Origin: Aquibaculum arenosum
GTDB lineage: Bacteria; Pseudomonadota; Alphaproteobacteria; Kiloniellales; DSM-21159
Length of the DNA: 64,000 bases
Assembly: GCF_029222965.1 (NCBI RefSeq)
Contig: NZ_JARHUD010000005.1
Span: 186,001 to 250,000 of the forward strand
Direction: 5' to 3'
A model generated the notes under the pieces. It ran no database searches and was not told where the DNA came from. It saw nothing but the letters and a program-made list of their open reading frames with translations. A program made the position numbers and the translations under genes. This document shows, piece by piece, positions 6,684 through 54,003 of this stretch (the stretch's first letter is position 1; each line of letters opens with the position of its first letter).

Positions 6684-6699
6684 CTGCTAGATTTGGTCG
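6684..6699 (+). promoter_or_regulatory. candidate NrdR box 1 upstream of nrdA
   Basis: The 16-mer CTGCTAGATTTGGTCG contains the core CTAGATTTGG, matching seven of eight fixed positions of the NrdR core CWANATNTWG. Its centre is exactly 31 bp from that of the second box, three helical turns, as is usual for paired NrdR sites. Confidence 0.65.
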
Positions 6700-6714
6700 G
6701 CGCACCGTTCGCAC

Positions 6715-6730
6715 CCGCTATATTTAGTGC
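6715..6730 (+). promoter_or_regulatory. candidate NrdR box 2 upstream of nrdA
   Basis: The 16-mer CCGCTATATTTAGTGC has the core CTATATTTAG, matching all eight fixed positions of the NrdR core CWANATNTWG. It lies about 45 bases before the preferred ATG and probably overlaps the promoter, as expected for repression. Confidence 0.72.
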
Positions 6731-6773: not shown

Positions 6774-8735
6774 ATGGATGGCTCGACGATTCTGCAGGAA
6801 AACGGCCCTGCCCGCGCCTATCCGGAGGCTGTGGATAAGGCTGTGGACAGCAAGCGGACACATGAATCTGCCATGGGCGATCTGCTGCCGACCGGGGAGT
6901 TCCGGGACCGATTCCAAAACGAGCGAGGCATCACGGTGCATATGCACCGGGAGCGCGACGGCCTGTTGACTCGCTTCGGCAAAGCAACGCTCGACGACCG
7001 CTACCTTCTGGAAGGCGAGTCTTATCAGGACCTCTTTGCGCGCGTGGCTGCCCACTTTGCGGACGACAGCGCGCATGCGCAGCGGCTCTACGACTACATC
7101 TCCAAGCTCTGGTTCATGCCCGCCACGCCTGTCCTGTCCAATGGCGGCACAAAGCGAGGTTTGCCGATCTCCTGTTTCCTGAACGAAGCCAACGACAGCC
7201 TGGAGGGCATCGTCGATCTCTGGAACGAGAATGTCTGGTTGGCGGCCCGCGGTGGGGGCATCGGCAGCTACTGGGGCAATCTCCGCTCGATCGGCGAGAA
7301 GGTGGGGATGAATGGCAAGACGAGCGGCGTCATCCCTTTCATCCGGGTGATGGATTCGCTGACGCTCGCTATCAGCCAGGGTTCATTGCGCCGCGGGTCA
7401 GCCGCCGTCTACCTGCCCATAGATCATCCTGAGATCGAGGAGTTCATCGAACTGCGCCGGCCCACCGGCGGTGACCCCAACCGCAAGGCACTGAACCTGC
7501 ACCATGGTGTTGTGGTTTCCGATGCCTTCATGCGTGCCGTGGCGGACGATGAGGAGTGGGCGCTGAAGAGCCCGAAGGACCAATCAGTGGTGCGCAAGGT
7601 TACCGCACGCAGCCTGTGGATTCGCCTGCTCACCTCGCGCATCGAGACGGGCGAGCCCTATATCATCTTCGGCGACCACGTGAACCGGGCGATGCCCGAG
7701 CATCACAAGCTCTCCGGTCTCACGGTGAAGATGTCCAATCTCTGCAGCGAGATCACCTTGCCCACGGGCATCGACCACCGCGGGCGCGATCGCACGGCGG
7801 TCTGCTGCCTCTCCTCGCTCAATCTCGAGACCTGGGAGGAGTGGCACGACCATCCCGACTTCGTCGAAGATGTCATGCGCTTCCTCGACAATGTGCTCTC
7901 GGACTTCGTCGCCAACGCGCCGGAATCCATGGACCGCGCCAAGTATGCCGCCATGCGCGAACGCTCGGTTGGTCTGGGGGTCATGGGCTTCCACTCCTTC
8001 CTGCAGAAGCAACGCATTCCCTTCGAAAGCGTCATGGCGAAGGTCTGGAACAACCGCATGTTCAAGCAAATCCGCGAGCAAGCGGATGCCGCGTCGCGGG
8101 TTTTGGCAGAAGAGCGTGGCCCCTGCCCAGATGCGGCAGAGCACGGCATCATGGAACGCTTTTCCCACAAACTGGCGATCGCTCCGACCGCGTCCATCTC
8201 CATCATCTGCGGTGGTACCTCGCCGGGCATTGAGCCCTTGGCCGGCAACGCCTTTACCCACAAGACGCTGTCCGGCTCCTTCGCGGTGCGTAATCCTTAT
8301 CTTGAGAAACTACTCGAGGAGAAGGGCCGAAACGACGAAGACACTTGGACTTCTATCACCATCAATGAAGGCTCGGTGCAGCACCTTGAGTGTCTGGACG
8401 AGGACGAGAAGGCTGTCTTCAAGACGGCATTCGAACTCGATCAGCGCTGGCTGATCGAACACGCCGGCGATCGCAGCCCGCACATCTGCCAGGCACAGTC
8501 GCTCAACCTCTTCCTGCCGGCCAATGTGCATAAGCGCGATCTGCATCAGATTCATTTGCTGGCATGGAAGAAAGGTGTGAAGAGCCTCTACTACTGCCGT
8601 TCTCGCTCCTTGCAGCGGGCGGAATCGGTGCTGGCCGCCGGGCTCGGCGTCGTGCCGATGCTGGGGAAGGTGAACGGCCAGGATGAGCCCGCGGCTTCCA
8701 CACTGGATTACGAGGAATGCCTCGCCTGCCAGTGA
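6774..8735 (+). CDS. nrdA: class Ia ribonucleoside-diphosphate reductase, large subunit
   Basis: This is the catalytic subunit that reduces ribonucleoside diphosphates to deoxyribonucleotides, with a radical supplied by NrdB. Visible class I motifs are PATPVLSNGGTKRGLPISCF (first redox Cys), NLCSEITL (second site), CCLSSLN, the phosphate-binding loop TASISIICGGTSPGIEP, the radical-path tyrosine pair in KSLYYCRSRSLQRAE, and the C-terminal CLACQ thiol pair. No full N-terminal ATP-cone is evident, and 653 residues is short for the family. ATG 6774 is preferred because GGAGA lies just upstream; in-frame TTG 6753 and ATG 6762 lack such a site. It is followed by nrdB after 62 bp. Tandem NrdR-like boxes and a DnaA box lie around the start. 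Confidence 0.95.
   Translation: MDGSTILQENGPARAYPEAVDKAVDSKRTHESAMGDLLPTGEFRDRFQNERGITVHMHRERDGLLTRFGKATLDDRYLLEGESYQDLFARVAAHFADDSAHAQRLYDYISKLWFMPATPVLSNGGTKRGLPISCFLNEANDSLEGIVDLWNENVWLAARGGGIGSYWGNLRSIGEKVGMNGKTSGVIPFIRVMDSLTLAISQGSLRRGSAAVYLPIDHPEIEEFIELRRPTGGDPNRKALNLHHGVVVSDAFMRAVADDEEWALKSPKDQSVVRKVTARSLWIRLLTSRIETGEPYIIFGDHVNRAMPEHHKLSGLTVKMSNLCSEITLPTGIDHRGRDRTAVCCLSSLNLETWEEWHDHPDFVEDVMRFLDNVLSDFVANAPESMDRAKYAAMRERSVGLGVMGFHSFLQKQRIPFESVMAKVWNNRMFKQIREQADAASRVLAEERGPCPDAAEHGIMERFSHKLAIAPTASISIICGGTSPGIEPLAGNAFTHKTLSGSFAVRNPYLEKLLEEKGRNDEDTWTSITINEGSVQHLECLDEDEKAVFKTAFELDQRWLIEHAGDRSPHICQAQSLNLFLPANVHKRDLHQIHLLAWKKGVKSLYYCRSRSLQRAESVLAAGLGVVPMLGKVNGQDEPAASTLDYEECLACQ
6830..6838 (-). 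promoter_or_regulatory. perfect 9-mer DnaA box inside the start of nrdA
   Basis: The minus strand reads TTATCCACA, the consensus high-affinity DnaA box. A single-mismatch copy (TAATCCACA) lies at 6741-6749 and a weaker one near 6842. DnaA is known to control nrdAB in Escherichia coli; a role here is inferred. Confidence 0.45.
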
Positions 8736-8797: not shown

Positions 8798-9757
8798 ATG
8801 TCCCTTCTTGAGTCCGACCCCATCTACAAGCCCTTCCGCTATCCCTGGGCCTACGATGCCTGGCTGCAGCAGCAGCGCATCCACTGGCTGCCGGAAGAGG
8901 TTCCCTTGGCAGACGACGTGAAGGACTGGCAGCGCGTGCTCAGCGAAGGCGAGCGCAATCTGCTGACCCAGATCTTTCGCTTCTTCACCCAGTCGGACGT
9001 GGAAGTGAACAACTGCTACATGAAGCACTATTCGCGGGTCTTCAAACCCACGGAAGTGCAGATGATGCTGGCCGCTTTCTCCAATATGGAAACGGTGCAC
9101 ATCGCCGCCTACAGTCACCTGCTCGACACGCTAGGCATGCCGGAAGCCGAGTACAGCGCCTTCCTCCACTACAAGGAGATGAAGGACAAGTATGACTATA
9201 TGCAGGCCTTCGGCGTCGAAACGAAGCGCGATATTGCCATTACCATGGCGGTCTTCGGAGCCTTTACAGAAGGGCTTCAGCTTTTCGCCAGCTTCGCGAT
9301 CCTGCTGAACTTCCCGCGCTTCAACAAGATGAAGGGGATGGGGCAGATCATTTCCTGGTCGGTGCGCGATGAAAGCCTACACACCGCCTCGATCATCCGG
9401 CTGTTCCGCACCTTCATGGACGAGAACCCCGAAGTCTGGAGCGAGGAATTGGAGCGCGAGCTCTACCGCGCCTGCGAGACCATCGTGACCCATGAAGACG
9501 CCTTCATCGACCTCGCCTTCGAGATGGACGGCGTTCAGGGTCTCACAGCCGAGGATGTGAAGCGCTACATCCGCTACATCGCCGACCGACGTCTGACGCA
9601 GCTTGGCCTACAGCCGATCTATCGCAGCGAGCGCAATCCCCTGCCCTGGCTCGACGCCATGCTCAACGGCATGGAGCACACCAACTTCTTCGAGAATCGC
9701 TCGACCGAGTATTCGAAGGCGGCAACCCAGGGGAGCTGGGAAGAAGCCTTCGAATAA
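8798..9757 (+). CDS. nrdB: class Ia ribonucleoside-diphosphate reductase, small (radical) subunit
   Basis: This ferritin-like subunit makes and stores the tyrosyl radical used by NrdA. All expected metal ligands are found at family spacing: Asp67, Glu98 and His101 (METVHIAAY), Glu158 (AFTEGL), and Glu192 and His195 (DESLHTAS). Tyr105, seven residues after Glu98, is the radical tyrosine, so this is not a Phe-type class Ic protein. The C-terminal tail (STEYSKAATQGSWEEAFE) is the flexible peptide that docks on NrdA. At 319 residues it is within family range. It lies 62 bp behind nrdA and is probably cotranscribed. The small gap before argG on the other strand holds no gene. Confidence 0.95.
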   Translation: MSLLESDPIYKPFRYPWAYDAWLQQQRIHWLPEEVPLADDVKDWQRVLSEGERNLLTQIFRFFTQSDVEVNNCYMKHYSRVFKPTEVQMMLAAFSNMETVHIAAYSHLLDTLGMPEAEYSAFLHYKEMKDKYDYMQAFGVETKRDIAITMAVFGAFTEGLQLFASFAILLNFPRFNKMKGMGQIISWSVRDESLHTASIIRLFRTFMDENPEVWSEELERELYRACETIVTHEDAFIDLAFEMDGVQGLTAEDVKRYIRYIADRRLTQLGLQPIYRSERNPLPWLDAMLNGMEHTNFFENRSTEYSKAATQGSWEEAFE

Positions 9758-13930: not shown

Positions 13931-13969
13931 GGAAAGAAAGCGGGGCGCTTCTGTTGCCAGGTGCGCCCC
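13931..13969 (-). terminator. intrinsic terminator of ssrA
   Basis: On the minus strand, GGGGCGC pairs with GCGCCCC across a 14-base loop and is followed by a T-rich run (GCTTTCTTT). It ends the tmRNA coding piece before sspB. Confidence 0.7.
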
Positions 13970-14250
13970 AAACCCCGCCTCAGGGGCTGAACCCTGAGGA
14001 CTTAGATCGGTTCACCCGACCGCTTACGCGGCGAGGCGAGCCTCAGCATAGTTGTCATTCGCAACTATATTTCGGCCCGATAACGGCGGTACCATGCCGA
14101 GCGCCCAACACTTCTTTACCACGCGTGTCGATCCTGTTTCGCCCCCATGAAGCCGCCACGCCTTGAGCTGCGGCGGCGAAATTGGTGGAGGCGCCGGGTA
14201 CTGCCCCCGGGTCCACTGCGCTTATGCCAAGTGCCAGTTTAGCGCCATAA
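13935..14250 (-). ncRNA. ssrA: tmRNA (ssrA), circularly permuted two-piece form
   Basis: Read on the minus strand, the acceptor piece comes first. It has a T-arm of CCGGG / CCCGG around loop GGCAGTA (14210-14194), the 3' acceptor strand CGCCTCC (14193-14187) and ACCA (14186-14183). After a spacer the coding piece begins GGGGGCGAAACAGGATCGAC (from 14146). The two acceptor strands pair perfectly, with a G-U at the third position, the alanine identity element. The tag frame starts at the resume codon GCG (14062) and reads ANDNYAEARLAA before TAA (14026-14024). The inverted order of pieces is the alphaproteobacterial permutation; the spacer is removed to give two RNAs. It rescues stalled ribosomes with SmpB. 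The outer ends are approximate. Confidence 0.94.
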
Positions 14251-14448
14251 CCGGTTGCCCGGTACGCAATGATATAGGACGTCTGCGCGCCCCATGGAAG
14301 GGGGCAAATGTACCGCAAGGCTCACTGATGAGCGCGTGAGCGGCCGTGCACCCCACTTGGCGGCACTTCCTGTGCAGTGGACTTTGCGCGAGCAGACTCG
14401 GGGTATATGCGCTAGGCTCCTCCATCCCTTTCCGGAGGAGTGTGGAGC

Positions 14449-15390
14449 ATGCCGCTGACGCCCGAGCAGCAGGCCGAGGTCGAACGCCTGCGCGACGAAA
14501 CGCAAGCCACCCGCCGCGCAACGGTGCCGGCGCTCGAAGAGATTCTGTACCAGGCGCTGCCGGTGCTCGATCACGGGTTTGTGCGCATCATAGACTACAT
14601 GGGTGACGATGCCGCGGTGGTTCAGGCGGCCAGGGTTTCTTATGGCCGCGGCACGAAGCGGGTGCAGGAGGATCGAGGGCTGATCCGCTATCTGCTGCGT
14701 CACCGCCACACCACGCCTTTCGAGATGTGCGAGATCAAGCTGCACGTGAAGCTGCCAATCTTTGTCGCTCGGCAGTGGATCCGGCACCGCACGGCGAATG
14801 TGAACGAGTACTCCGGCCGCTATTCCATCATGGACCGGGAGTTTTACATCCCGGCCCCGGAGCATCTGGCCGCGCAGTCACGCAGCAACCGGCAAGGCCG
14901 CGGCAATCTGCTCGAAGGCGAGGAAGCTGCCGAGGTTCTGGAGCTGCTCAAGCGCGATGCCGCGCAGAGCTATGCCGACTATCAGTCTATGCTGAACGAG
15001 ACCGATTCCGGGGAGATCATCGACCCCGGTCGTAAGGGGCTAGCGCGCGAGCTGGCGCGCATGAACCTGCCGGTGAACTTCTACACTCAGTGGTACTGGA
15101 AGACCGACCTGCACAATCTGCTGCACTTCCTCTCCCTGCGCGCCGACCCCCACGCACAGTACGAGATTCGGGCCTACGCCGAAGCCATGCTGGAGGCAGC
15201 CAAGCGCTGGGTGCCGCTCACTTTTGAGGCATACGAGGACTATATTGCCGGCGGGGCACAGCTCTCGCGCCAGGGGCTGGAGGTGACGCGACGCCTTCTC
15301 GCCGGCGAACAGGTCGAACAGGAAGACAGCGGGTTGTCTCCACGTGAGTGGCGTGAGCTCATGGGGCTGCTGGGGCGCGGCCAGTCCTGA
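14449..15390 (+). CDS. thyX: flavin-dependent thymidylate synthase
   Basis: ThyX makes dTMP from dUMP with methylenetetrahydrofolate and FAD/NADPH, and does not yield dihydrofolate as ThyA does. The signature [15 protein letters not shown] fits the ThyX motif RHRxxSxNExSxRY with alanine and valine substitutions common in alphaproteobacteria. The segment [20 protein letters not shown] precedes it, and the dUMP-binding C-terminal part ([19 protein letters not shown]) follows. The start ATG 14449 has a GGAGGAG site eight bases upstream; an in-frame GTG at 14440 lies inside that site. The 313-residue length is normal. It is divergent from ssrA, and close to nrdAB and pabAB, which also serve DNA-precursor and folate supply. 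Confidence 0.95.
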
Positions 15391-49245: not shown

Positions 49246-49271
49246 GGGAGGGGACTTGGGCCCCTCCCTTT
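49246..49271 (+). terminator. terminator between the convergent Sua5 and nrdJ genes
   Basis: An 8-bp stem (GGGAGGGG / CCCCTCCC) with a 7-base loop is followed on the plus strand by TTT. It begins 6 bases after the Sua5 gene stop and touches the nrdJ stop. Confidence 0.6.
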
Positions 49272-52200
49272 AGCTGCAGCCGCTGGTGCTGCCGCAGGTG
49301 TCGCACTTCATGCAGGTGCCGTTGCGCACCAGCGTGAAGTTGCCGCACTCGCCGCAGGGGTCACCCTCGTAGCCCTTCATGCGGGCCAGGCGGGATTGCT
49401 GGACGCGGGTCTCGATGTCACGGGTCACGCTCTGCGCCACGACGGTCTGGCTTTCGCCGCTGGCAAAGGCCGTTACCCGGCTCTCAGCCTGAGGCTCCTC
49501 GACCGCAGCGGTGGCTGCGCCGCCGGCGAGCACGGTCAGGCGGTTGCGCACGAAGCCGCGCGAGGTCACCCGCTCCACCGTCTTGCGCACTGCATCGGCA
49601 GCCTGTCCTGCCATAGCGGTTTGGTCAACCTGTGACTGGCCCTCGCCCTTGCCCGTAGTATCCGGAGCCAGATCGTCCGGCGACACATGGGCGAGATCGG
49701 TCCGGCCGAGGTAGGAAATCGCCAGTTCGCGGAACATGTAGTCGATGACCGAAGTGGCCATCTTGATGGTGTCGTTGCCTTCCACCAAGCCCGAGGGCTC
49801 GAAGCGGGTGAAGGTGAAGGCCTCCACATACTCCTCCAGCGGCACGCCGTACTGCAGACCGATGGAAATGGCGATGGCGAAGTTGTTCATCAGACTGCGG
49901 AAGGCCGCGCCTTCCTTGTGCATGTCGACGAAAATCTCGCCGAGCCGGCCATCCTCATACTCGCCGGTGCGCAGATAGACCTTGTGCCCGCCGACCACCG
50001 CCTTCTGGGTATAGCCCTTGCGGCGCTGCGGCAGGCGCTCGCGTTGAACCACCCGCTCGACGACACGCTCGACCACGCGTTCCGCCACCATTGCCGCCTT
50101 CGCGTTTTGGGGCGCCTCCGCGATCTGCTCGACCAAGCTCTCCGCCTCGTCGGACTCCACATCATCCTCGAGCAGCGAGGCCGACAAGGGCTGCGAGAGC
50201 TTGGAGCCATCGCGGTAGAGGGCATTGGCTTTCAGCCCCAGCTTCCAGGACAGCAGGTAGGCATCCTTGCAGTCATCCACCGACGCGCTGTTCGGCATGT
50301 TGATGGTCTTGGAAATCGCGCCTGAGATGAAGGGCTGCGCCGCCGCCATCATGCGGATGTGGCTCTCCACCGACAGGAAGCGCTTGCCGATGCGTCCGCA
50401 GGGATTGGCGCAGTCGAAGACCGGCAGGTGCTCGTCCTTGAGATGTGGCGCGCCTTCCAGAGTCATGGCGCCGCAGACGTAGGTGTTGGCCGCCTCGATC
50501 TCCGCTTTGTCGAAACCCAAGGCCGCAAGCATGTCGAAGCTGAGATCATTCAACTGCGCTTCGGTGAAGCCCAGGGTATCGCGGCAGAAGGCGTCACCCA
50601 GCGTCCACTTGTTGAAGACGAACTTAATATCGAAGGCGCTCGCCAGCGATTGCTCGAGGGTCTGCAGAACTTCGTCGGTAAAGCCCAGTGCACGCAGTCG
50701 CTCGGAATTGATGGCCGGCGCACCGGCCAGGGTGCCGTGACCGACCGCATAGTGCACGATGTCCTGCACTTCGGCATCGCTGTAGCCCAACTCCGACAGC
50801 GCAGCCGGAACGGTGCGGTTGATGATCTTGAAGTAGCCGCCGCCGGCCAGCTTCTTGAACTTGACCAGCGCGAAGTCCGGCTCGATGCCCGTGGTGTCGC
50901 AATCCATGACCAGGCCGATGGTCCCCGTCGGCGCGATCACTGAGACCTGAGCGTTGCGGAAGCCATTGGCTTCACCGAGCTTCAGTGCCGCGTCCCAGCT
51001 TGCCTTGGCTGCCTCAGCCACATCGGCGTCCGGGCAGCGGGCGTGATCGAGCGCCACAGGCTGGACTGAGAGGCCTTCATAGCCGCGGTTCTCGCCAAGA
51101 GCGGCACGGCGGTGATTTCGGATGACCCGCAGCATGGCATCGCGATTGACATCATAGCTCGGGAAGGGCCCGAGCGCCGCGGCCATTTCGGCCGAGGTCG
51201 CATAGGCCGTGCCGGTCATGAGAGCCGTCAAGGCGCCACTGAGCGCGCGGGCCTCGACGCTGTCATAGGGCAGCCCCATGGACATGAGCAGGCCGCCGAG
51301 GTTGGCATAGCCCAGTCCGAGGGTGCGGAAATCGTAGGAGAGCTGCGCGATCTTCGGCGAGGGGTACTGCGCCATCATGACCGAGATCTCGAGCACGATG
51401 GTCCAAAGCCGCACGGCGTGGCGGAAGGCCTCCACATCGAAGGTGCCACCCTCCGGCCGGAAGGTCATGAGGTTGAGTGAGGCCAGATTACAGGCCGTGT
51501 CATCGAGGAACATATACTCCGAACAGGGGTTCGACGCATTGATGCGCCCCGAGGCCGGGCAGGTGTGCCACTCGTTGATCGTGGTGTCGTACTGCACGCC
51601 CGGATCCGCCGATGACCAGGCCGCATGGCCAATCTTCTCCCAGAGGTCCCTGGCCTTGAGCGTGCGCACCACCGTGCCGTCGGTGCGGGCAGTCAGGTGC
51701 CAGTCGCCGTCGCGCAGAACCGCATCGATGAAGTCGCGCGAAATGCGCACCGAGTTGTTGGAGTTCTGGCCGCTGACGGTCAGGTAGGCTTCGGAGTCCC
51801 AGTCGGTGTCGTAGATCTTGAACTCGATCCCCTTGTAGCCCTGCCCGGCGAGCTGGATTACCCGCTGCACGTAATTCTCGGGGATCATCGCTTTGCGCGC
51901 CGCCTTGATGGCGGCCTTGAGCGCAGGGTTCTGCTTGGGATCGAGGCGCTCTTCCCCCTCGGCCGCGTGGCAGGCTTCCATGACGGCGTTAAGGTGCAGG
52001 TTGCAGAGCTTGGAGCCGGAGACCAGCGCGGCCACCTTCTGCTCTTCGCGCACCTTCCAGTCGATGTAGTCCTCGATGTCCGGGTGATCGAGATCGACGG
52101 TCACCATCTTGGCGGCGCGGCGAGTCGTGCCCCCCGACTTGATCGCACCGGCTGCCCGGTCGCCGATCTTCAGGAAGGACATGAGGCCGGAGGACTTGCC

Positions 52201-52944
52201 GCCACCGGACAGCGGCTCCTTTTCGCCGCGAATGCGCGAGAAGTTGGTGCCGGTGCCCGAGCCGTACTTGAAGAGGCGGGCCTCGCGGACCCAGAGGTCC
52301 ATGATGCCGTTGTCGTTCACCAGGTCGTCATCGACGGACTGGATGAAGCAAGCATGCGGCTGCGGATGCTCGTAGGCCGACTCGGAGCGCTTCAGCTCAC
52401 CTGTCTGGTGATCGACGTAATGGTGACCCTGGCTGGGGCCATCGATGCCATAGGCCCAGTGCAGGCCGGTGTTGAACCACTGCGGGGAGTTGGGGGCCGC
52501 CATCTGAGTTGCGAGCATGAAACGCACTTCGTCAAAGAAGACCTGTGCGTCGTTCTCCGAGTCGAAGTAACCACCCTTCCAGCCCCAGTAAGTCCAGGTC
52601 CCGGCGAGGCGATCGAAAACCTGCTTGGCACTGGTCTCGCCGACATTGCGCCGCTCGGCCGGCAGGGTGGCCAGGGCCGTCTCGTCAGCCACGGAGCGCC
52701 ACAGGAAAGAGGGAACGCTCGTCTCCTCAACACGCTTGAGCGCACCGGGGAGGCCGCGCTTGCGGAAATACTTCTGCGCAAGGATATCGCAGGCGACCTG
52801 GCTCCAATCGGCCGGCACCTCGATGTGGTCCGCCGCAAACACCGTCGAACCGTCCGGGTTGCGAATCTCGCTGCTTGTGGTGCGGAAGGGAATGTCCTCG
52901 TAGACATCCCGCCCTTCGTCGGTGAACAGCCGCGAAATCCTCAT
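49270..52944 (-). CDS. nrdJ: B12-dependent class II ribonucleotide reductase
   Basis: NrdJ makes deoxyribonucleotides with a radical generated from adenosylcobalamin, independent of oxygen. The 1224-residue protein has the catalytic barrel with the loops [28 protein letters not shown], the radical-loop Cys in [21 protein letters not shown], and [22 protein letters not shown] repeated V-V-E-R segment near residue 945 precedes a TSCPD-type domain. The C-terminus is a cysteine-rich region ([21 protein letters not shown]) likely to act as redox-active thiols or a metal site. ATG 52944 follows AGGGGGC. The 1.2-kb-residue size is typical for alphaproteobacteria. Tandem NrdR-like boxes lie upstream. 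Confidence 0.96.
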
Positions 52945-53024
52945 AACCAAGCCCCCTGCAAGCTAAGAAACAGTCGCCACTCACGGGCTCCGCAGCAGCA
53001 CCAGCGTGCGCTCCCGAGCGTATC

Positions 53025-53040
53025 CGCCTACATATTGTGA
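53025..53040 (-). promoter_or_regulatory. candidate NrdR box, proximal, upstream of nrdJ
   Basis: The 16-mer CGCCTACATATTGTGA has core CTACATATTG, matching all eight fixed positions of CWANATNTWG. It lies about 80 bases before the nrdJ ATG. Confidence 0.7.
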
Positions 53041-53055
53041 CGAAGCTTTAGTGAA

Positions 53056-53071
53056 CCACACAATGCGGTGT
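53056..53071 (-). promoter_or_regulatory. candidate NrdR box, distal, upstream of nrdJ
   Basis: CCACACAATGCGGTGT is a weaker core, but within 53056-53073 the flanks CCACAC and GTGTGG form a perfect inverted repeat. Its centre is exactly 31 bp from the proximal box, repeating the geometry seen at nrdA. Confidence 0.55.
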
Positions 53072-53136
53072 GGGTCACCCAGATTTGGGACCCGAAGCGA
53101 AATTTAGCGCCTTGACGCATGCCCCGACAGAGTCGC

Positions 53137-54003
53137 TCACAGCGCCCGCTGCTTGCGGCCGGCAAGATAGATCGCCAGGACGACCAGAAACACGCCGGTC
53201 GCCTGCAATGCGGTCAGACGCTCGCCCAGCAAAAGCATGGCCAAAAGGATCGCCATGACCGGTTCGAGGTTGAGAAACATCGCCGTTTCCGCTGGCCCAC
53301 CCGCCTTGACCGCGAGGAAGCTCAAGCCGATTCCGGCCAGATAGAGCAGCGCGGCCACGGTCAGCATGCTGAGGCCGAAGGTCGTGTCGCTGATCACCGG
53401 CCCCTCGGTCACGAGCAGCAAGCTCATGAAGAGCAGGCCCATGAGGTTGCCGTTGAACAGCACGGTCAGCGGGTCGTGCCTGCGGGTCAGATGCCGCACC
53501 AGGAAGAGCAGTGTGGCCATGGAGCAGGCTGCCATCAGCGCCAGTGCCACGCCTCGCGGGTCCAGCGCGCCCAGGTCCGGCCCAAGCGCCCCGGCCAGGC
53601 CGACAAATGCCAAGAGGAAGGCGAGCCACTGGGCCCCCGTTAGGCGCACCCCGTCGATAAACGGCGTCGCTGCCGCCACGAGCAGGGGAAAGGTGTACAG
53701 CAGCAGGGCCGCGAGCCCCACGGGTATGTAGGCGATCGACAGCAGGTAGCCGATCGTGAGCCCGCTAAGGGCCAGCCCCGCCGCTATAAAAGCCGGAACG
53801 TCGCTGCGGGTGGGCCAAAGAGGCCGCCCGAGCAGCCGCAGCGCCACACCGAAAACCAGGATGGCGACGATGAAGCGCACTGCCAGCAGCGTCTTGGGCG
53901 TGGTGCCGGCGTCATAGGCGAGTCGGGCAAAGGGTGTGGTCCCCCCGAGCGCCGCGGCCGCTGCCAGAGCTAACAACCGCCCCGTTGTCGCCGTATCGCG
54001 CAT
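53137..54003 (-). CDS. EamA-family (DMT) permease
   Basis: The 288-residue protein has about ten transmembrane segments arranged as two EamA repeats (about 1-135 and 145-285), the drug/metabolite transporter pattern. The end of the second repeat reads ETAMFLNLEPVMAILLAMLLLGERLT, typical of the family. The substrate is unknown. The ATG has a GGGAGAGGG site upstream. It sits downstream of the TAXI receptor gene on the same strand but behind a terminator hairpin. Confidence 0.85.
   Translation of the reverse strand: MRDTATTGRLLALAAAAALGGTTPFARLAYDAGTTPKTLLAVRFIVAILVFGVALRLLGRPLWPTRSDVPAFIAAGLALSGLTIGYLLSIAYIPVGLAALLLYTFPLLVAAATPFIDGVRLTGAQWLAFLLAFVGLAGALGPDLGALDPRGVALALMAACSMATLLFLVRHLTRRHDPLTVLFNGNLMGLLFMSLLLVTEGPVISDTTFGLSMLTVAALLYLAGIGLSFLAVKAGGPAETAMFLNLEPVMAILLAMLLLGERLTALQATGVFLVVLAIYLAGRKQRAL

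Follow-up and report, generated by a model that had tools for sequence, protein, structure and literature searches.

A probable NrdR operator upstream of the class II ribonucleotide reductase gene nrdJ in Aquibaculum arenosum, and NrdR-type boxes before gcrA

Results

NrdR-type boxes upstream of nrdJ and nrdAB

The window, by which we mean the whole 64,000-nucleotide stretch of DNA analysed, holds genes for a class I and a class II ribonucleotide reductase, each preceded by boxes of the type recognised by the repressor NrdR:

6684..6730, plus strand: NrdR box pair of nrdAB, made up of 6684-6699 and 6715-6730, whose centres are 31 bp apart
6774..8735, plus strand: nrdA, class I reductase alpha subunit (PRK09102)
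8798..9757, plus strand: nrdB, class I reductase beta subunit
49270..52950, minus strand: nrdJ, class II (B12-dependent) ribonucleotide reductase (PRK07562, 2211 bits; likely start ATG 52944)
53025..53040, minus strand: box C, canonical NrdR box, TCACAATATGTAGGCG in the nrdJ sense, with core CAATATGTAG at 53028-53037
53056..53073, minus strand: box B, degenerate NrdR box, CCACACCGCATTGTGTGG in the nrdJ sense
53076..53091, minus strand: box A, third box, with core CCAAATCTGG at 53079-53088
53098..53107, minus strand: candidate fourth core CTAAATTTCG, lying 19 bp farther upstream than A, recognised by the published box expression alone

A first-pass annotation of this DNA had proposed that a perfect palindromic core and a second palindrome with the inverted arms CCACAC/GTGTGG lie upstream of nrdJ, repeating an arrangement found before nrdAB. 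A check of the letters finds both elements where they were claimed, the core CTACATATTG at 53028-53037 and the arms at 53056-53061 and 53068-53073; the pair before nrdAB is likewise real, its boxes standing 31 bp apart. The nrdJ boxes lie in a gap of 186 bp that separates the longest nrdJ frame, which runs from 52950 on the minus strand, from the frame of an EamA-family transporter. Because the transporter gene beyond the gap runs in the same direction as nrdJ, nrdJ is most likely the gene served by this promoter region, and the boxes stand, as expected of an NrdR operator, upstream of a ribonucleotide reductase gene. No match to a sigma-70-like promoter was found in 52900-53200, so the overlap with promoter elements is our own reading: from its position, box C possibly lies over the -10 region, and the right half of box B, TTGTGTGG, may double as a -35 element. 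A B12 riboswitch was considered as an alternative form of control and rejected, the 64-kb window containing no match at the Rfam gathering score. Elsewhere, the window also carries a permuted alphaproteobacterial tmRNA gene (13939-14303, minus strand), adjoined by an ORF (14440-15390) that reads, by a motif, like thyX.

The boxes are of unequal quality. Box C, box A and the fourth core match the published box expression C.[AT].A[AT].[AT].G, in which the C and G stand ten bases apart; box B fails it and is accordingly a weak box. Box A lies 18-20 bp upstream of B and 51 bp from C, and its flanks are weak in this genome. The distance between B and C, given as 31 bp centre to centre in the first-pass annotation, depends on what is measured: the centre of the perfect palindrome CCACAC/GTGTGG lies 32 bp from that of the core, 1 bp beyond the reported figure, whereas the spacing as NrdR boxes, by the C and G ten bases apart, is 31 or 33 bp. 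A matrix trained on sites from other genera gives 31 the higher score (22.1 versus 20.0 bits), and the flank TTGTGTGGTT, which also stands after box 1 of an E. coli nrdHIEF oligonucleotide (PMC12176259), would favour register 33. A separation of 31-33 bp corresponds to a spacer of 15-17 bp, and so every register, with B a weak box, falls inside the 14-17 bp over which NrdR is reported to bind (PMC12051234). Under an integral-turn rule (spacers of 14-17 or 24-27 bp), B and C fit, and the strict-expression boxes A and C, 51 bp apart, do not.

Paired boxes exceed chance and rank highest at the two reductase genes

The 16-base consensus and its weights were set by hand, and were checked against the published expression, the trained matrix and a two-box profile, R1, built from 41 sites in other genera with our own genus left out. 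That the palindromes are chance features of a promoter might be argued from how common short palindromes are and from the single-box scans, in which the pattern with 3 mismatches occurred 3 times in the window against 1.77 expected, no clear excess, and 62 and 60 times genome-wide, fewer than the 108 and 107 of the reversed control. As single boxes showed no clear excess over chance, pairs are needed, and these stand against a chance origin. In 3000 dinucleotide shuffles of the 186-bp gap, the observed pair score was never reached, and the best single-box score was reached by 7; three published-type cores appeared in 5 shuffles and two in 48. On both strands of the 64 kb, pairs scoring at least 27 at 30-33 bp occur in only two places, before nrdA and before nrdJ. 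Conservation in relatives (see below) already contradicts chance palindromes, which we hold to be extremely improbable.

Scored with the matrix trained without our own genus, nrdA reached 30.7 and nrdJ 22.1 bits, against 10.6 bits for the best unrelated place. The genome-wide search for an NrdR regulon suggested by the first-pass annotation was carried out with R1, which returned three matches (E up to 10) from 71 candidates in the 3.49-Mb genome and placed nrdA first (E 0.003), nrdJ second (E 0.4) and a half-site before gcrA third (E 0.67). Taken alone, the value for nrdJ is weak and not significant; its weight comes from its rank and from conservation. Sites before non-reductase genes, gcrA and other loci among them, could point to another regulator with a similar palindrome, such as a CRP/FNR-like or cell-cycle factor, with NrdR uninvolved. 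However, the 10-bp core with its conserved C and G, its AT-rich middle and the spacing of 31 bp within pairs all match what is described for NrdR (PMC9110341, PMC12051234), and the strongest match in the genome is nrdA; we consider a different regulator highly unlikely.

The pair is conserved at nrdA and in many nrdJ promoters

For nrdJ, we joined 30 loci from relatives, our own genome included, to an 80-locus named set; our own genus was kept, and 3 of 110 nrdJ and 4 of 30 nrdA upstreams were dropped as near-copies or too short. With the fixed, hand-set consensus, the best pair over spacings of 18-45 was sought in each upstream. It had a spacing of 31/32 bp in 60 of the 107 nrdJ upstreams, against a mean of 7.25 and a maximum of 14 in shuffles, and in 25 of the 26 nrdA upstreams, against a mean of 2.05 and a maximum of 5. 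These counts weigh less than independent samples owing to kinship among the relatives. The best pair had another spacing in 47 of the 107 nrdJ upstreams, and at the single-box threshold many nrdJ promoters of the order have just one strong box. Within the family, the conserved footprint consists of AAATCTGG-TGAC, TTGTGGTTCACT and CACAATAT. Individual boxes turn over within the genus: the same-genus genome G001 keeps the right half of box B (TTTTGTGGTTCACT) and has a good box A, while the left arm of box B is not conserved there and box C is unrecognisable. For the second palindrome, whose lack of conservation the first-pass annotation had named as a refutation, G001 thus shows conservation of the right half and not of the left arm.

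This turnover bears on a narrower reading, in which only box C, or A and C about five turns apart, contacts NrdR, and CCACAC/GTGTGG is a coincidence or belongs to some other factor. Such an operator would fit the failure of B against the published expression, which A and C match at 51 bp, the unconserved left arm of B in G001, and the spacing of 50, by the published expression, in 8 of 48 nrdJ promoters of the order. Against it, the homologous position in relatives often holds good boxes 31 from C, the trained matrix scores B positively (7.5 bits), the right half of B and the flank TTGTGGTTCACT are conserved, and a 50-bp pair lies outside the bound spacings reported in PMC12051234. We regard an operator without box B as unlikely, and favour B and C together as the NrdR-bound pair.

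A third box is often present at nrdJ in the order

Box spacings in the nrdJ promoters of the order peak at 31 (z 36.4), 19 (z 34.6) and 50 (z 27.8), with a median of 16.0; spacings of 29, 17 and 22 also reach z 27-28, 29 and 17 being two bases off a main peak. For nrdA promoters and the named-set nrdJ promoters, the peak is at 31. By hand, the layout A-19-B-31-C was found in relatives that include G002, G005, G007, G008 and G011 of our own family. When a threshold was applied and the search anchored on the B-C pair, a box A at -19/-20 was present in 15 of 39 nrdJ promoters of the order, representing 8 genera and 4 families, our own family and genome not among them. The same box was found in 0 of 30 nrdA promoters of the order and 3 of 51 named-set nrdJ promoters, one of which (L061, Kiloniellaceae) may itself belong to the order (Fisher p 5e-5 and 2e-4, respectively, with relatives treated as independent). 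Promoters below the pair threshold had been dropped (9 of 48 order nrdJ, 3 of 33 order nrdA and 28 of 79 in the named set). The nrdJ promoters of this order thus frequently have a third box, placed 19-20 bp upstream of the B-C pair. The counts at order nrdA and named-set nrdJ give no support for box A as a feature of Alphaproteobacteria in general.

The sole ATP-cone detected in the genome belongs to NrdR

The genome has one copy of nrdR (L001:1501-1965), flanked, as judged by eye, by glyA before it and ribD on the other side. Its product consists of a Zn-ribbon (PF22811) followed by an ATP-cone (PF03477), scores 186.8 bits with TIGR00244, and keeps D15, R17 and RRRR 26-29 (read in L001 and aligned to solved NrdRs), the residues reported to contact DNA (PMC9110341). 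No other ATP-cone was detected in the genome, and NrdA, NrdB, NrdJ and a third reductase gave no match; the nrdAB and nrdJ reductases therefore lack that dATP switch. Among our own genome and 57 relatives, an ATP-cone match occurs in 56 of 58 and exactly one in 53 of those 56; the NrdR Zn-ribbon is found in the same 56 genomes and adjoins the cone in those compared by eye. Across the class sample, 271 of 290 genomes have an ATP-cone match, and 247, counted by hand from the table, have just one, some of these single cones lying in long frames that are not NrdR. Judged from these domain matches, dATP sensing by an ATP-cone seems here to act via transcription alone, although dATP may also inhibit by other routes. 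With no cone found on any reductase, overall-activity control by dATP may depend mainly on the NrdR brake.

About 9 kb from nrdR lies the gene for the third reductase, a class II-like protein of 751 aa (TIGR02504; L143:12669-14924, minus strand). The idea that it is another NrdR target was rejected: upstream of this gene in our own genome and 20 relatives, one of the 21 stretches being shortened by a contig end, neither the best single box (mean 12.33 versus 12.20 shuffled) nor the pair (20.48 versus 20.13) exceeded shuffles. It serves as a negative control and is a possible escape from NrdR and dATP control.

NrdR-type boxes precede gcrA

The gene gcrA is a cell-cycle master gene, and GcrA is a co-regulator of sigma-70. 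The third R1 match in the genome consists of one perfect box, CCACAAGATATTGTGC, located 94 bp ahead of gcrA (PF07750), and belongs to the following feature:

G000:C27, near 211048-211143 (L205:2550-2644; L206-L265): NrdR-type box arrays of gcrA

In our own genome, gcrA has three boxes, two of them weak, at spacings of 39 and 32; its best-scoring 31-bp pair combines the perfect box with a poor one and was reached by 0 of 3000 shuffles. In the order, among the best-scoring 30 of 56 genomes with a GcrA match (our own included; 6 families, 14 genera), all 30 loci examined have a 31/32-bp pair scoring at least 27 within 300 bp of gcrA, against 0 of 28 and 0 of 29 neighbouring control stretches and 0.05 per shuffled set. 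Counting boxes of at least 13 within 120 bp, a spacing of 31/32 is found in 28 of the 30 and 31/32 together with 19/20 in 21. A motif-free alignment of these upstreams yields conserved blocks that coincide with the boxes. The first block lies over TATAT, 16-18 bp after CTnGAC, which is present in most loci, though not all; on our promoter reading, TATAT would be the -10 element.

Outside the order, among the best-scoring 30 of 96 genomes of the class with GcrA, 17 have a 31/32-bp pair at gcrA and the other 13 lack one; the two sets of control stretches gave 0 of 30 each. One locus, L245, has boxes spaced 31, 31 and 42 and encodes a GcrA close to the solved structure 7ye1 (E 5e-53), which we take to be Caulobacter GcrA. 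R1, trained on no gcrA site, matches gcrA upstreams in 6 of 58 genomes (E 0.3 or lower) and has no match at all in 9 of the 58; it also matches places that are neither reductase genes nor gcrA.

Other matches of the two-box profile

Several such places were noted in relatives. A promoter-like element, CCACAAAATTTAGTTGAC, is conserved in a two-box match at 11 loci (near position 1500 of L291, L295, L296, L297, L313, L298, L300, L314, L278, L280 and L307) and is followed by a close GANTC site in 10 of them. The region after the element has no clear ORF and looks like small RNAs with terminators; among 16 loci of such profile matches Rfam returned no gathering-score match other than tRNAs, and for one of these loci none that was convincing. 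An NrdR-like pair lies just upstream of a YbjN-family gene and then a proC-like gene near 1500 of L303, L310 and L312, the YbjN identity being shown for L310 and proC read by eye. Finally, a box pair sits inside an mnmE-like reading frame near 1500 of L268 and L301, loci from two genomes that belong to a single genus (E 5e-5 and 0.02).

Discussion

The stretch upstream of nrdJ is very probably an NrdR operator, with NrdR also acting on the nrdAB pair, so that one dATP brake would be shared. We infer binding, repression and promoter position, and take the mechanism from work on other species. When dATP is plentiful, an NrdR tetramer loaded with dATP and ATP (or ADP) would grip boxes B and C, three DNA turns apart, bending the promoter and keeping RNA polymerase off; when dATP falls, NrdR would become ATP-loaded and release the DNA, and nrdJ would be made. 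The same NrdR on the nrdAB pair would place the oxygen- and B12-dependent alternatives under one dATP brake, and box A presumably strengthens or tunes the grip. The first-pass proposal, one repressor for both reductases rather than oxygen or B12 level alone, is partly supported: shared predicted NrdR sites at nrdAB and nrdJ are backed by motif, spacing, conservation, genome rank and the presence of nrdR. Its picture was incomplete, missing the third reductase with no box excess, the three-box arrangement at nrdJ and the sites at gcrA.

For the NrdR of Streptomyces coelicolor, Grinberg 2006 is reportedly the work cited. As proposed here, one NrdR in that species acts through pairs three turns apart on class I nrdAB and class II nrdRJ (PMC9110341). 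Unlike in S. coelicolor, where nrdR is inside the nrdJ operon, nrdR here lies elsewhere, between glyA-like and ribD-like genes; in addition, neither reductase here has a detectable ATP-cone, and nrdJ seems to have the extra box A. The boxes also resemble those of E. coli nrdHIEF, nrdDG and nrdAB, which are 16 bp long with 15-16 bp spacers, share the flank TGTGGTT after box 1, and in nrdAB number three (PMC12176259). The E. coli targets described in that source, however, are class I and III operons only, and its three nrdAB boxes stand 31-32 bp apart rather than 19 plus 31 as here. More than two boxes per promoter are likewise reported for Streptococcus pneumoniae nrdHEF (three) and Listeria nrdAB (four), with spacers of 24-26 or 15-16 bp (PMC12051234), unlike the 3-bp A-B spacer here. 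That 3-bp spacer, 19 bp centre to centre, is outside the 12-27 bp range tested in the same work. Operators of the nrdJ kind are already known, and the novelty lies in the three-box layout and in the gcrA sites.

Going by the conserved box arrays, we lean towards the view that in Alphaproteobacteria NrdR also acts on the gcrA promoter. High dATP would then damp gcrA and S-phase gene expression, and NrdR would be a dATP hub for both supply and cell cycle, no ATP-cone having been found on either NrdR-controlled reductase. In this order it would use operators of several boxes, spaced 31 plus 19 bp, at both nrdJ and gcrA. In Caulobacter, raised dNTPs delay S-phase entry independently of CtrA, by a mechanism stated in 2025 to be undefined (PMC12186491); the term GcrA is absent from the main text of that paper. 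Its authors also found that deletion of nrdR in C. crescentus gave 10% more spread in soft agar, which they attributed to a swarmer phase prolonged by raised dNTPs; the deletion was also synergistic with loss of fssC, a change that gives high dNTPs (PMC12186491). A simple NrdR brake on gcrA predicts neither effect, which counts against that reading. In the titles and abstract openings of the open-licence literature, a scope outside which the target tables of PMC5343134 fall, we found no report connecting GcrA with NrdR, NrdR with CtrA, GcrA with dNTPs, or gcrA with ribonucleotide reductase. NrdR control of gcrA would be a novel reading, unreported as far as the literature searched goes.

NrdR is among the most widespread proteobacterial regulons, with 186 regulons in 20 taxon groups (PMC5343134). 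Because joint NrdR control of class I and class II reductases is known in Streptomyces, the nrdJ operator alone is ordinary, and any wider importance would lie in the reach of the NrdR regulon. If NrdR does act at gcrA, the boxes there would connect dNTP level to a cell-cycle master gene through a named link that is open to direct test.
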